Source of the DNA: Pontibacter cellulosilyticus
GTDB lineage: Bacteria > Bacteroidota > Bacteroidia > Cytophagales > Hymenobacteraceae
NCBI RefSeq assembly: GCF_014306105.1
Contig: NZ_JACRVF010000003.1
Span: 372,001 to 436,000, forward strand
DNA: 64,000 nucleotides
Direction of reading: 5' to 3'
How positions within the stretch are numbered: position 1 is the first letter of the stretch; each line of letters starts with the position of its first letter. Position numbers and translations under genes: made by a program. Shown here piece after piece: positions 25,588-56,551 of the stretch. Below the pieces are notes generated by a model. That model ran no database searches and had not been told where the DNA came from. It saw only the letters and a list, made by a program, of their open reading frames with translations.

Positions 25588-26436
25588 ATGGAGGAGCTTA
25601 TCCTTTTTCTGGTTGGCATTTTGGTCAGCGCATTTGGCACCATCATCGGGTTTGGCGGTGGTGTGTTTATGGTGCCCATCCTGATCATCTTCTTCGGCTA
25701 CAACATCGAAATAGCCATAGGCTCTACCATGGCTGCACTGGTGCCAGCCTCTGTTATTGCCTCTGTGTTTAACCTCCGCGACAGAAGTATAGATTATGTA
25801 GTGGGCACGCTGATCCAGTTACCTGCTGTGGTGGGCACTGTGTTAGGCGCTTTTATGGTGGCTTTTCTGCCGGTGTTTAAGCTGCAGTTTATCTTTGCAT
25901 TGTTTGTTGTAGCCATTGGTGCCACCATGTTTGGTCCTAAAAAGAAAAAGGTAAGGTCGAAGCGTTCCGGTGTAATGTACCGCATGCGCCGGATTCCAAC
26001 TTCTTTTATCCGTAAGAACAGGGCAAAGCACCTGGCCTATAGAATTAACGGTGGTCTTGTTTCCGCTTTTGGGTTTGTGTCGGGTGTTATGGCGGGGCTG
26101 TTTGGTATAGGCGGCGGGTTTGTTCAGACTCCTGCCATGATCAAACTTTTCCGGATACCGCCGCAAATTGCCACGTCCACTTCCCTGTTTATACTTGTGA
26201 TTACCAGCTTTACCGGCCTTATCAGCCACTTTTTGTTAGGCAACGTTATGTGGAGCCGGTGTTTGCCCATTGTGGCCGCTTTTGCATTGGGCGCGCTGGG
26301 TGGCAACTTGGTAAAAAAAAGATCCGGCCCACAAGGGCTGAAAATGGAAAAATTGATCGGTATCGGTTTATTTCTGGCTGGCTTCGGTGTGCTTCTGAAC
26401 CTGGCCATTAAATCTCACTTCGGGTTCTCGTTTTAG
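25588..26436 (+). CDS. TauE/SafE-family membrane transporter
   Basis: This 282-residue protein has about eight transmembrane helices in two related halves: FGTIIGFGGGVFMVPIL near the N-terminus and GVMAGLFGIGGGFVQTPAM in the middle are the paired glycine-rich repeats of the family. A basic cytoplasmic loop (GPKKKKVRSKRSG) separates the halves. Characterised members export sulfite, sulfoacetate or related organosulfur anions, but substrates vary. It is co-directional with ade; the downstream genes are convergent. Confidence 0.88.
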   Translation: MEELILFLVGILVSAFGTIIGFGGGVFMVPILIIFFGYNIEIAIGSTMAALVPASVIASVFNLRDRSIDYVVGTLIQLPAVVGTVLGAFMVAFLPVFKLQFIFALFVVAIGATMFGPKKKKVRSKRSGVMYRMRRIPTSFIRKNRAKHLAYRINGGLVSAFGFVSGVMAGLFGIGGGFVQTPAMIKLFRIPPQIATSTSLFILVITSFTGLISHFLLGNVMWSRCLPIVAAFALGALGGNLVKKRSGPQGLKMEKLIGIGLFLAGFGVLLNLAIKSHFGFSF

Positions 26437-26503: not shown

Positions 26504-26926
26504 TTAATCTGCGAAGTACTTATTAAGCAGGTTGCTCACCTTTTCTGTACTTAATGGCTTGGTCAGGTACTCGGCAGCGTATTTTTTAGAAGTCTCCGTG
26601 TCTTGTGGGTGAGTAGAGCTGGTAAGCACTGCCATTACTATATTCTTCCTGAAATCCGCATTTAGGCGCTCATACAGGTCCAGCATCTCAAAGCCATCCA
26701 TTACCGGCATGTTAATATCCAGGAAAATAAGCTGCGGCTGAAAATAGTCTTTATTAGTTGTGTCGTAGTTGTTGTTGCTGATATTGTACAGGTAATCGAA
26801 TGCCTGTTTCCCGTTCACGAAAGTGCGTATGTTCTCTGTTACCCCCAGCCTCTCCAGCAAACGGCGGTTCAGGAAGTTTGTAGTTTCATCGTCGTCGATG
26901 AGTAGTACGCCAGTAAGCTTTCTCAT
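26504..26926 (-). CDS. single-domain response regulator (Rcp1/CheY-like)
   Basis: From the ATG at 26926 the protein has 140 residues (a TTG two codons upstream is possible). It is only a receiver domain: the acidic pair is in VLLIDDDETTNFL, the phospho-acceptor Asp is in LIFLDINMPVMDG, Thr/Ser in VLTSST and the conserved Lys in YLTKPLS. There is no output domain. The ETTNFLNRRLLE segment and the long loop before the acceptor strand (NNNYDTTNKDYFQP) are typical of Rcp1-like regulators that serve phytochrome and similar kinases. It starts 6 nt after the stop of the ethylene-receptor-like kinase and must be its partner. Confidence 0.9.
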   Translation of the reverse strand: MRKLTGVLLIDDDETTNFLNRRLLERLGVTENIRTFVNGKQAFDYLYNISNNNYDTTNKDYFQPQLIFLDINMPVMDGFEMLDLYERLNADFRKNIVMAVLTSSTHPQDTETSKKYAAEYLTKPLSTEKVSNLLNKYFAD

Positions 26927-26932
26927 GATCAA

Positions 26933-28216
26933 TTAAATATCAATAGTATCAACAATTGGGAAACGTAATGTAAAGGTAGTTCCCTCTCCAACAACAGATG
27001 CAACTGTTATACTTCCTCCGTAATTCTCAACTATCCGCTTTACAATAAACAGACCAACACCGCTTCCTTCAACATGGTCATGCAGGCGCTTAAATAGCTT
27101 AAACAGCTTTTCTTCGTTACCTCGCAAATCTATACCTATTCCGTTATCTGTTACCGACAAAAATATATAATTTTCTTTAAACCCTGAAGTCAGCTTAACA
27201 TAAGGCTTACGAGATGGCTCTTTATACTTTAAAGCATTGGTTAACAAATTATAAAGAATACTTTTAGCATCTTTCCTGTTAATAGGCAACGTCGCCTGCG
27301 CCATAAAGTCAGTATCTAATACAGCGTTGTTCCGTTCAATTGTAGCCGCGATGCTAACTTTCACCTCCTGCAGCACCTCATGCAGGTTAACCTGCTCAAG
27401 CAAGTGCGTTTCGCTTTCATTCTGGAATATACTTACGGCAGTAAGATCATGTATTGTCCTGTTTATTTGGGCGACAGATTTGTCTAGGTGTGTTAAGAGC
27501 TGGTTTATATTCTCGTCAGGAGCAACCATTTCTTCCTTCAGCACATTCACCAGGCCCTCAATGTTGAATATCGGAGCTTTTAAGTCGTGGGACGCACAGT
27601 ACACAAAGTTGTCGAGGTCTCGGTTAGAGCGTTCCAGTTCACGGTTCTTTCGCTGCAGCGTTTTTTCTGCCACCATTCTTACCGCTATCTCTTTCTCTAA
27701 TTTTTGATTGGTAGAGTAAAGCTCTTCTGTACGCTCTCGCACGCGCATTTCAAGCTCCTCGTTTACCACCCTAAGCGCCTCTTGTACACGCTCGCGTTCT
27801 GCTATCTCTACCTGCAACTGCTTGTTTGCCGCTGTCAGCTGCGCTTGGCTTGGTATGGAAAGCAGCACTGGCAGCGATCGCCACAGCACAATAGCTGTGC
27901 CAACCGAAAGTATGGCTGTAACAACTTTTACAAGACCGCCAAGCCTGTATATGGGCACCCAAACCGTGATCATATCGATCAGGTGTGTTGTGCCGCAAGC
28001 CAGGATAAAAGCACCAAAAAGAAGAAAGACATACTTATGTGTGAGATCCTGCCTCTTTTTTGCAAAGTAAAAAAGCATGAATGGGATAGAATAGTAGGCC
28101 AGCATAATCAGCGAGTCGCCTCCTACATTCATCGCTACTATCTCTGTTTTCCAGAAATAGCAATGCCCGTGGGGCATAAAGTCAGATTCGACTATCTTTT
28201 TGAAAAATTCGTTCAT
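26933..28216 (-). CDS. membrane histidine kinase with ethylene-receptor-type N-terminal domain
   Basis: This protein has 427 residues. Residues 13-22 read FMPHGHCYFW, then three hydrophobic helices follow (about 33-53, 62-81, 88-112). The residues that bind Cu(I)/ethylene in plant ETR1 (Asp25, Tyr32, Ile62, Cys65, His69) are all present with the same spacing: D34, Y41, I71, C74 and H78 (LAYYSIPFMLFYF and FGAFILACGTTHLID). A long coiled coil (about 125-200) replaces the GAF domain of plant receptors. HisKA has its phospho-acceptor at H210 (YCASHDLKAP), and HATPase motifs N (NALKYKEP), G1 (DNGIGID) and G2 (GSGVGL) are intact. It should sense a small gas or copper at the membrane and phosphorylate the adjacent response regulator. 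Confidence 0.9.
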   Translation of the reverse strand: MNEFFKKIVESDFMPHGHCYFWKTEIVAMNVGGDSLIMLAYYSIPFMLFYFAKKRQDLTHKYVFLLFGAFILACGTTHLIDMITVWVPIYRLGGLVKVVTAILSVGTAIVLWRSLPVLLSIPSQAQLTAANKQLQVEIAERERVQEALRVVNEELEMRVRERTEELYSTNQKLEKEIAVRMVAEKTLQRKNRELERSNRDLDNFVYCASHDLKAPIFNIEGLVNVLKEEMVAPDENINQLLTHLDKSVAQINRTIHDLTAVSIFQNESETHLLEQVNLHEVLQEVKVSIAATIERNNAVLDTDFMAQATLPINRKDAKSILYNLLTNALKYKEPSRKPYVKLTSGFKENYIFLSVTDNGIGIDLRGNEEKLFKLFKRLHDHVEGSGVGLFIVKRIVENYGGSITVASVVGEGTTFTLRFPIVDTIDI

Positions 28217-28280
28217 ACAAGAAATGCCGAAAGGGTTTTAAGTAATGATATAGTTCTTTAATAATCGCGAAAGCTACAAA

Positions 28281-28316
28281 AAAGAAATGCCCGAACCTAT
28301 GTCCGGGCATTTCTTT
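28281..28316 (-). terminator. terminator after the CBS-like gene
   Basis: AAAGAAATGCCCG (28281-28293) pairs with 28304-28316 across a 10-nt loop, giving a 13-bp perfect stem 18 nt beyond the stop codon at 28335. On the minus strand the stem ends in TTTCTTT. Confidence 0.75.
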
Positions 28317-28334
28317 AAGCTTAGTATTTTACAA

Positions 28335-29321
28335 TTAGTCGATGTATCCTTGGGCGCGCATCCAATCGTCATTGTAAATCTTACCTAAGTAACGTGTACC
28401 GTGATCAGGCAATAGCACTACCACCACGTCATTTTCGGTAAGGTTATTTTCGCGGATATACTCCAGCGCACCATACACAGCCGTACCGCACGACCAACCT
28501 ACAAAAAGACCTTCTTCTTTTGCTAATCTTCTGGTCATCACGGCACCGTCTTTATCGGTTACTTTTACAAACTGATCTATCACGTCAAAGTCTACGTTCT
28601 TTGGCAGGATGTCTTCACCGATACCCTCTGTTGCGTAAGAGTAGATTTCGTTCTCGTCAAAAACGCCTGTTTCTTTATACTTTTTGAACACAGAGCCATA
28701 AGTATCGATACCAATCGTTTTTATCGCAGGGTTCTTCTCCTTCAGGTATCTGGAAATGCCCGTAACTGTACCGCCTGTTCCTACACCGGTAATAAAGTGC
28801 GTTATTTTCCCGTCTGTCTGCTCCCAGATTTCCGGGCCAGTGCTCTCGTAATGGGCTGCCCAGTTAGACATGTTATCATACTGGTTCGGGTAGAAGGAGT
28901 TTGGTATCTCTTCGTTCAGGCGCTTTGCCACCGAGTAATATGAGTCCGGATGGTCCGGAGAAACATTGGTTGGGCAAACTACCACTTCTGCTCCAACGGC
29001 ACGCAGGATGTCCATTTTCTCTTTGCTCTGCTTATCAGCCAGCGTAAAAATGCACTTATAACCTTTTGCAATAGCTGCCAGAGCCAGGCCCATACCTGTG
29101 TTACCTGATGTTCCTTCGATGATAGTGCCGCCTGGCTTCAGAATACCCACTTGCTCAGCATCCTCTATCATTTTTATGGCCATACGGTCCTTTACAGAGT
29201 TACCCGGGTTTAGGTATTCTACCTTGGCAAGAACGGTGGCTTTTACACCTTTTGTAACGTTATTTAGCTTTACTAAGGGTGTGTTACCGATAGCTTCGGT
29301 AATATGATTTAGGTATTTCAT
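28335..29321 (-). CDS. PLP-dependent cysteine synthase / cystathionine beta-synthase-like enzyme
   Basis: This 328-residue fold-type II PLP enzyme has the Schiff-base lysine in PGNSVKDRMA (K44), the phosphate-binding TSGNTGMG, and the PLP-phosphate glycine loop GVGTGGTVTG. The C-terminal LLPDHGTRYLGKIYNDDWM block is the form seen in cystathionine beta-synthases rather than in CysK. The regulatory CBS pair of the human enzyme is absent. It may make cystathionine or cysteine from O-acetylserine or serine. The cytoplasmic enzyme is transcribed alone, with a terminator behind it and a -7 box in front. Confidence 0.88.
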   Translation of the reverse strand: MKYLNHITEAIGNTPLVKLNNVTKGVKATVLAKVEYLNPGNSVKDRMAIKMIEDAEQVGILKPGGTIIEGTSGNTGMGLALAAIAKGYKCIFTLADKQSKEKMDILRAVGAEVVVCPTNVSPDHPDSYYSVAKRLNEEIPNSFYPNQYDNMSNWAAHYESTGPEIWEQTDGKITHFITGVGTGGTVTGISRYLKEKNPAIKTIGIDTYGSVFKKYKETGVFDENEIYSYATEGIGEDILPKNVDFDVIDQFVKVTDKDGAVMTRRLAKEEGLFVGWSCGTAVYGALEYIRENNLTENDVVVVLLPDHGTRYLGKIYNDDWMRAQGYID

Positions 29322-56180: not shown

Positions 56181-56551
56181 TGGTGGAGATGCAGGGATTC
56201 GAACCCTGGTCCAGACAAGGAAACCGTCGTGCCTTCTACATGCTTAGACGCTAGTTGGATTGTCGGGAGATTGCGGGCCTAGGTCAAGCCTATGCGCACT
56301 CCTTAGATGCTTAATTTCGCCTGTGCACCGCACCTTTACACAGACTAGTAAATCGGATCGAAGCCTCTGATGTGCAAGCAGATTTACGAAGCCTGCACGA
56401 GACTATGGCTAGTGCTTAATACCTAGATTAAGCAGCCATGGCGTAGTTATATTCGCCAGTTATTGTTCGAACGAATTTTTAACAGGTGGTACGTTCATCA
56501 CCCAACATGCTTACACGCAATCTGCACAAGCTGTCAATTCCGGTCATCCCC
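56181..56551 (-). ncRNA. ssrA: tmRNA (transfer-messenger RNA)
   Basis: tmRNA rescues ribosomes stalled on broken mRNA. The 3' end (56181 upward on the minus strand) reads GGTTCGAATCCCTGCATCTC with CACCA, giving a T-arm and an encoded CCA. The 5' end GGGGATGACCGGAATTGACA pairs with it as a 7-bp acceptor stem (one G-U). The tag frame, with resume codon GGC, is 56457 to 56431 on the minus strand, followed by TAA. The total is about 371 nt, normal for tmRNA. Its terminator and a -7 box are both visible. Confidence 0.95.
56428..56457 (-). other. tmRNA tag reading frame (GEYNYAMAA)
   Basis: Inside ssrA the minus strand reads GGC GAA TAT AAC TAC GCC then ATG GCT GCT TAA. After the tRNA-like alanine the tag is GEYNYAMAA. 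It ends in the usual A-A for ClpXP-type proteolysis, and Met instead of Leu at the third-last position is a small variation. Confidence 0.9.

Follow-up and report, generated by a model that had tools for sequence, protein, structure and literature searches.

The closest described systems are the ETR1-type receptors of Synechocystis and Azospirillum brasilense. SynEtr1 (Slr1212) of Synechocystis is presented as an active kinase with a response regulator as its signaling partner (PMC11819568, PMC7700396), and plant ethylene signaling, unlike that of SynEtr1, is described as independent of histidine kinase activity (PMC11819568). AzoEtr1 of Azospirillum brasilense is reported to bind ethylene and comprises 525 aa, with a PAS domain between the sensor and the kinase, and the gene downstream of it encodes AzoRR-etr1, a 135-aa receiver without an output motif (PMC11819568). 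The same report equates D25, C65, H69, and K91 of ETR1 with D35, C75, H79, and K98 of AzoEtr1 (PMC11819568). C65 and H69 of ETR1 are given as the Cu(I) ligands (PMC13012798), and the aspartate D25 and the lysine K91 have been described as tied to ethylene affinity and output. Published work also places putative ethylene receptors in "other bacterial phyla" (PMC11819568), and one from Bacteroidota may have been listed before; no tested or described ETR1-type receptor of Bacteroidota was reported in the titles and abstract openings of the ethylene-receptor literature that we found. Here we analyze a kinase gene within a window of 64,000 nucleotides (the whole stretch of DNA studied) from Pontibacter cellulosilyticus. 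Judged from its sequence, the product is most probably an ETR1-type receptor kinase seated in the membrane.

Domain layout of the kinase

The sensor histidine kinase gene (26933..28216, minus strand; ORF list and Pfam) starts at ATG and encodes 427 aa. Pfam and the AlphaFold2 model give the domain order as ETR1_N sensor, coiled coil, HisKA, and HATPase_c. The three-helix membrane sensor, residues 26 to 121 (27854..28141, minus strand), matches PF25487 (ETR1_N) with an E value of 5.9e-36 and 123 bits against a cut-off of 27. The match covers positions 2 to 97 of the 97 in the profile, and together with the modeled helices it accounts for a complete ETR1_N three-helix domain. None of 14 control genomes contained a PF25487 match. 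Since the whole ETR1_N domain matches, a chance or convergent pocket was ruled out.

In the AlphaFold2 model, helices at residues 24–54, 61–83, and 90–118 are followed by a single helix, 124–211, that runs into the dimerization domain. This last helix is the coiled-coil linker into HisKA (27584..27847, minus strand; AlphaFold2 secondary structure), for which Pfam offered no linker domain; in particular, no GAF or PAS domain was detected by Pfam between residues 121 and 202 at E values up to 0.01. The GAF domain that lies between sensor and kinase in the Slr1212/SynEtr1 and plant ETR1 architectures is accordingly not found in the window kinase. The earlier note had described a coiled coil leading straight to HisKA without a GAF domain, and this description holds, as Pfam finds no domain between 121 and 202 and the helix 124–211 is modeled there. 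The HisKA match at residues 202–261 scored 22.9 bits, below its cut-off of 26.9, and with the alignment it places the expected phospho-acceptor H210 in an SHDLKAP box (27587..27589, minus strand). The HATPase_c catalytic domain, residues 315–421 (26954..27274, minus strand; PF02518, E 2.7e-22), has N327 and the DNG/GxG boxes intact. By alignment, the orthodox kinase motifs are all present, namely H210, N327, D357/G359/G361, and G384/G386/G388.

The model was built from a three-row alignment, with a mean pLDDT of 68.8 and a pTM of 0.37, and its confidence over the membrane part is moderate (block means 54–80). Structure prediction had been proposed as a check on the sensor, and the result, three helices and a long coil at moderate confidence, agrees with it. 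The predicted structure supports the layout of the kinase but not the geometry of the pocket. For ETR1 itself, a review states that an ab initio model of the membrane domain agrees with EPR data more closely than the AlphaFold model does, although neither accounts for them in full. No solved structure resembled the sensor by sequence, the only two matches both having an E value of 0.9. Among the best 50 of 476 Foldseek matches, nearly all were histidine kinase structures by title.

Predicted ethylene-binding pocket

Seven residues of ETR1 (D25, Y32, I35, P36, I62, C65, and H69) are said to be needed for ethylene binding, reportedly from work by Wang et al. in 2006. In an alignment with ETR1, its residues D25, Y32, I35, P36, I62, C65, H69, and K91 correspond to D34, Y41, I44, P45, I71, C74, H78, and K97 of the kinase. 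All seven binding residues are identical (7/7), and K97 is the equivalent of K91. The five pocket residues named in the earlier note (D34, Y41, I71, C74, and H78) are thus at the places claimed, and I44, P45, and K97 match in addition; an alignment had been suggested as a test, and D34, Y41, C74, and H78 do superpose on the ETR1 pocket positions.

The alignment places D34, the counterpart of ETR1 D25 and AzoEtr1 D35, at 28115..28117. The expected Cu(I) ligands are C74 (27995..27997), equivalent to ETR1 C65, and H78 (27983..27985), equivalent to H69. K97 (27926..27928), which corresponds to ETR1 K91 and AzoEtr1 K98, is the expected partner of D34 in receptor output; all four codons are on the minus strand. 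The D-C-H-K spacing of D34, C74, H78, and K97 is identical to that of D35, C75, H79, and K98 in AzoEtr1. On the general chemistry of Cu(I), such a pocket could bind another small ligand, CO or another gas, in place of ethylene; but the full ethylene pocket is kept here, D34 included, and we regard this as highly improbable.

The kinase locus and its regulator across the genus

Downstream of the kinase lies a gene for a stand-alone receiver protein of 140 aa with D70 as the expected phospho-acceptor (26504..26926, minus strand; PF00072, E 1.9e-13, and translation). It starts at the ATG at 26926, 6 nt past the kinase stop; the mechanical ORF list has a TTG at 26932. By Pfam, this regulator consists of a receiver domain only. 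Upstream of the pair, an intergenic stretch (28217..28334, minus strand) holds, by eye, a terminator-like inverted repeat and a T run, and beyond it a PLP enzyme of the cysteine synthase/cystathionine beta-synthase kind (28335..29321, minus strand; Pfam and synteny) forms the upstream boundary of the conserved locus. The downstream neighbor is a TauE/SafE-type transporter (25588..26436, plus strand; PF01925, E 2.9e-39), which was found in 30 of 50 genomes of the genus (E ≤ 1e-40). The sister genera g2, g3, and g5 share the gene order PLP enzyme, kinase, regulator, TauE, and adenine deaminase, either whole or partially. The assignment of an ETR1-type sensor to a histidine kinase is upheld by PF25487, by all pocket residues, by three predicted helices followed by a coil, and by the same locus in sister genera. 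Elsewhere in the window, a tmRNA gene (56181–56551, minus strand) with the tag GEYNYAMAA was seen; no tRNA genes were found in the window.

Of the 50 genomes of the genus, 49 have the regulator (E ≤ 1e-35), always at this locus, and the kinase occupied that site in only three. The single genome lacking a regulator match, G016, is 87% complete and stands outside the 49. In all 48 fetched loci, as in the window, the regulator adjoins the PLP-enzyme gene. The gap between the two measures 168–854 nt in the 46 genomes without the kinase, compared with 1435 and 1498 nt where it is present (G046 and G029, respectively) and about 1.4 kb in the window. The earlier note described the kinase as paired with an Rcp1-like regulator lacking an output domain, and this stands in part: the regulator is a receiver domain alone, 6 nt away, but it is not tied to the kinase, as 46 of the 49 genomes do without one at the site. 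Being genus-wide and mostly without the kinase, the regulator is probably not a dedicated ethylene-response partner, and most of the genus can do without whatever signal the kinase detects.

Residues D11, D12, D70, T102, S104, and K123 of the regulator are invariant in all 49 genomes, so the protein is presumably still phosphorylated where a kinase of the window type is missing. Kinase cores 40–47% identical to that of the window kinase were common in the seven genomes of the genus that were searched, which makes another phosphate donor for the orphan regulator plausible. We infer that the regulator functions in this genus with or without the kinase, which would feed into it only in some species. 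PF25487 matched in six of the 50 genomes. In G027, G013, and G002 (L055, L056, and L057), a pocket-intact kinase is found elsewhere in the genome and the regulator stays at the old site; no regulator-like ORF of at least 110 aa was seen beside the relocated kinase in the surroundings inspected in G027 and G002.

Probable loss of the kinase

Remnants in at least two genomes point to loss of the kinase at the site, which we favor over gain. In G008 the regulator is intact, and the gap beside it (L121:3079-3900) contains a kinase fragment that is about 55% identical over 102 aa. In G005 (L124, from the regulator to the PLP-enzyme gene), two collinear kinase pieces lie in different frames, and the regulator is likewise intact. 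When the gaps were tested with a profile, G008 scored 117.6 bits and G005 scored 15.6 and 14.2 bits, values reached by none of 920 dinucleotide-shuffled gaps. Weak remnants in G033, G021, and G035 were matched by 2, 3, and 5 of the 920 shuffled controls, respectively, and are only suggestive. For the other 41 of the 46 gaps, the best 15 were matched by at least 54 shuffled controls each, and the remainder scored lower. The gap of G031 gave a tblastn piece at E 5e-4, outside the best 20 of the profile test; the codon-shuffled tblastn control returned one piece, at E 0.059. PF25487 matched nowhere in G007 and G043, the genomes placed closest to the window's on the tree, and their gaps of about 200 nt showed no kinase trace above chance in the profile test.

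Similar decay was observed in the sister genera. In g2, G054 has kinase pieces in two frames beside an intact regulator (L223:5435-5748, E 2e-6), G055 has a weak piece (E 3e-4), and no kinase pieces were found next to the regulator in G057. In G059 of g3, only the sensor and the coil remain, and no regulator passed E 1e-28. On the species tree, a quick tree without G054, G055, and G057 (which have the regulator and no PF25487), a history of losses only takes 13 of them, a number that falls to 7 when trust is limited to branches with SH-aLRT of at least 95. Equal-cost parsimony on the 70-row tree gives four changes and allows one loss with three regains. In the kinase tree, which included 11 of 15 g5 proteins but not G059, the three site kinases form one group, whose support is 92/87 according to the group table and 81/77 on the drawn tree. 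That the site acquired the kinase recently is disfavored, given that outgroup genera hold it there, that remnants lie in the gaps, and that the three site kinases group together.

Disarmed homologs in a sister genus

In g5, homologs lie at the same site with the same regulator alongside in all 15 genomes with a match. Their pockets have been altered: in the 11 aligned proteins, the positions of C65 and P36 are replaced in 11/11, D25 is changed in 10/11, and H69 is kept in 11/11, and in the remaining four the Cys and Pro are also gone, by eye. The phospho-acceptor His is replaced by Arg in 15 of 15. At the g5 loci L024-L034, L068-L069, and L181-L193, the pocket Cys, the Pro, and the phospho-acceptor His are lost and the reading frames are open. 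The DNG and GxG boxes and N327 are kept in the 11 aligned homologs; by eye, His replaces the first Asn of the N box in G190, G192, and G188. The g5 homologs therefore share the locus, the regulator, and the DNG/GxG boxes with the window kinase but have lost its pocket and phospho-acceptor His. In g3, G058 has Asn in place of the phospho-acceptor His and has the pocket. Some plant ethylene receptors have also lost their His, and the pattern in g5 suggests a role other than that of a kinase.

Conservation follows the same division. Among the three site carriers, identity is 70% in the sensor versus 61% in the kinase core, and against g2 and g3 it is 55–60% versus 50–51%. Between g5 and the pocket-bearing relatives the ratio is reversed, at 27–31% versus 44–47%. 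The genus and its sister thus offer a natural experiment, with one regulator in 49 species in which the kinase is present or gone, and a disarmed form in g5. The empty site in 46 of 49 genomes, the decayed remnants in G008 and G005, the disarmed g5 homologs, and the reduction to sensor and coil in G059 could mean that the kinase is vestigial, with little present function, and is disappearing from the genus. However, the reading frame, the pocket, H210, the N box, and the G boxes are all intact in the window, and the three site carriers differ less in the sensor than in the kinase core; we judge a vestige to be very unlikely.

Copper and pump fusions

The genome of the window contains three Cu P-type ATPase matches over the cut-off, one of which has an internal stop codon. 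As such ATPases were also over the cut-off in 13 of 14 control genomes, these pumps are weak evidence for a copper link. A closer association was seen in G385, G574, and G615 (two families), in which HMA, P-type ATPase, ETR1_N, PAS, HisKA, and HATPase domains lie in one ORF. By Pfam domains, these fusions of a CopA-type pump, an ETR1_N sensor, and a PAS histidine kinase are located at L215:4440-9038 (plus strand), L216:5389-9987 (minus strand), and L230:4936-9168 (minus strand); for G615, the mechanical ORF list puts the start at a TTG. An ORF cut by the contig end in a Chlorobiota MAG (L010:159-3236) holds, by eye, the pump, the sensor, and the coil. In the alignment, the fusions of G385, G574, and L010 have the pocket N/Y/I/P/I/C/H with D at the place of K91, and by eye the G615 fusion likewise keeps C and H and has N and D at the places of D25 and K91, respectively. 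The G385 fusion is followed by a receiver gene, with a gene for cytochrome bd subunit II upstream. From the pump fusions, we infer that copper is the likely cofactor of the ETR1_N domain in bacteria. The copper pump RAN1 and the receptor ETR1 are described as two proteins in plants, and the fusions would join in one chain what plants split between them. No fusion of a copper pump, ETR1_N, and a kinase was reported by title or abstract opening in the literature found.

The same fusions bear on whether the sensor might read Cu(I) itself, as metal load or redox state, with occupancy of C74 and H78 switching the kinase and ethylene at most incidental. The ETR1 pocket is described as a Cu(I) site, and the related sensors on CopA-type pumps have kept C and H, with D25 changed to N and K91 to D. 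In the window kinase, by contrast, both D34 and K97, the counterparts of the affinity and output residues of ETR1, are intact; moreover, the bacterial member AzoEtr1 is reported to bind ethylene, and there is no copper-resistance gene among the few neighbor genes identified. We consider direct Cu(I) sensing unlikely and favor ethylene reception.

Phage proteins

ETR1_N proteins without a kinase were found in four phage lineages, in three of which an endolysin-type gene is adjacent or near. The stand-alone proteins comprise one of 75 bits beside a terminase (L241:2977-3363), a near-copy of it (L242:1726-2112), one of 55 bits near a muramidase (L243:2824-3273), and one of 67 bits near an M15 peptidase (L249:1102-1692). 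In Maribacter phage Molly_1, Molly1_65 (61 bits, L244:5932-6801), annotated as hypothetical, lies beside an amidase; out of 50,697 records, eight from Maribacter phages gave a match. The proteins of L241, L243, and Molly_1 keep the Cys and His and have Ser in place of P36, and the Asp is kept only in L241. None of L241, L243, and Molly1_65 has a PHROGs family. Our literature search found no paper on ethylene receptors in phages, and none of the matches listed for Maribacter phage, ethylene, and holin concerned ETR1_N phage proteins by title. The title of Kabbara et al. (2019) already raises the question of phytohormone receptor genes in giant viruses that infect brown algae, so there is no novelty in viral copies by themselves. 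Because an endolysin-type gene is adjacent or near in three lineages, the phage proteins may have a role in lysis, holin-like or as a timer.

Proposed mechanism

The window kinase is likely to perceive ethylene by means of Cu(I) and to pass phosphate to the neighboring receiver. Cu(I), supplied by the copper ATPases of the cell, would sit on C74 and H78 of helix 2, and ethylene would bind to it beside D34 of helix 1. The resulting change would travel via the D34–K97 contact and helix 3 into the coil and reset the autophosphorylation of H210. The phosphate would then move from H210 to D70 of the receiver, which would act by binding other proteins. In favor of ethylene reception we count the PF25487 score, the 7/7 pocket residues with K97, the spacing and receiver gene like those of AzoEtr1, the CopA–ETR1_N–kinase fusions, the three Cu ATPase matches, and the better conservation of the sensor than of the core among relatives that have the pocket. 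Against it we count the absence of the kinase in 46 of 49 genomes, the lack of PF25487 in G007 and G043, and the moderate AlphaFold2 confidence over the membrane part.

A broader proposal, conceivable though doubtful, is that bacteria and phages use the ETR1 fold generally as a membrane module gated by Cu(I), with ethylene reception as just one application. Here it would be a plug-in input on a hub regulator, either deleted repeatedly or retained in disarmed form, as a pseudokinase that may hold the regulator back instead. Distant relatives would have it built onto a copper pump. Alone in phages, where three of the four lineages have an endolysin-type gene adjacent or close by, it could be a holin or lysis timer.

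Comparison with known receptors

PF25487 was found in 34 of 204 genomes of the family and in 21 of 395 drawn from the phylum. It also matched in 6 of 245 genomes drawn from the class of G385, five of them over the cut-off. The scan of genome contigs yielded only four loci. One locus, L039, comprises only a 41-aa start with a TGA inside, from which no pocket letters were read. A distant homolog in G350 (L232:4701-6371, minus strand) has its Cys replaced and a kinase of a different type by eye. Relatives of the sensor occur on plasmid records (18 of 72,556), among others from Azospirillum, Novosphingobium, Rhizobium, and cyanobacteria. Residues 11–127 of the window kinase (117 residues) are 47–48% identical to copies in the A. 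brasilense records listed, which may not be AzoEtr1 itself.

The window thus holds a pocket-complete kinase outside the bacteria with receptors reported as tested, Synechocystis and Azospirillum. Plant ETR1 resembles it in the pocket residues and their spacing, and has in addition a GAF domain and an attached receiver. SynEtr1 (Slr1212) likewise has an ETR1-type sensor on a kinase, but it is described with a light-sensing GAF domain, and none was found in the window kinase. As a refinement, we regard AzoEtr1, more than Slr1212, as the nearest tested analog. AzoEtr1 and AzoRR-etr1 share with the window pair a three-helix ETR1 domain, the identical D-C-H-K spacing, a histidine kinase, and a lone receiver gene just downstream, whereas AzoEtr1 has 525 aa with a PAS domain and the window kinase has 427 aa with a coil only.
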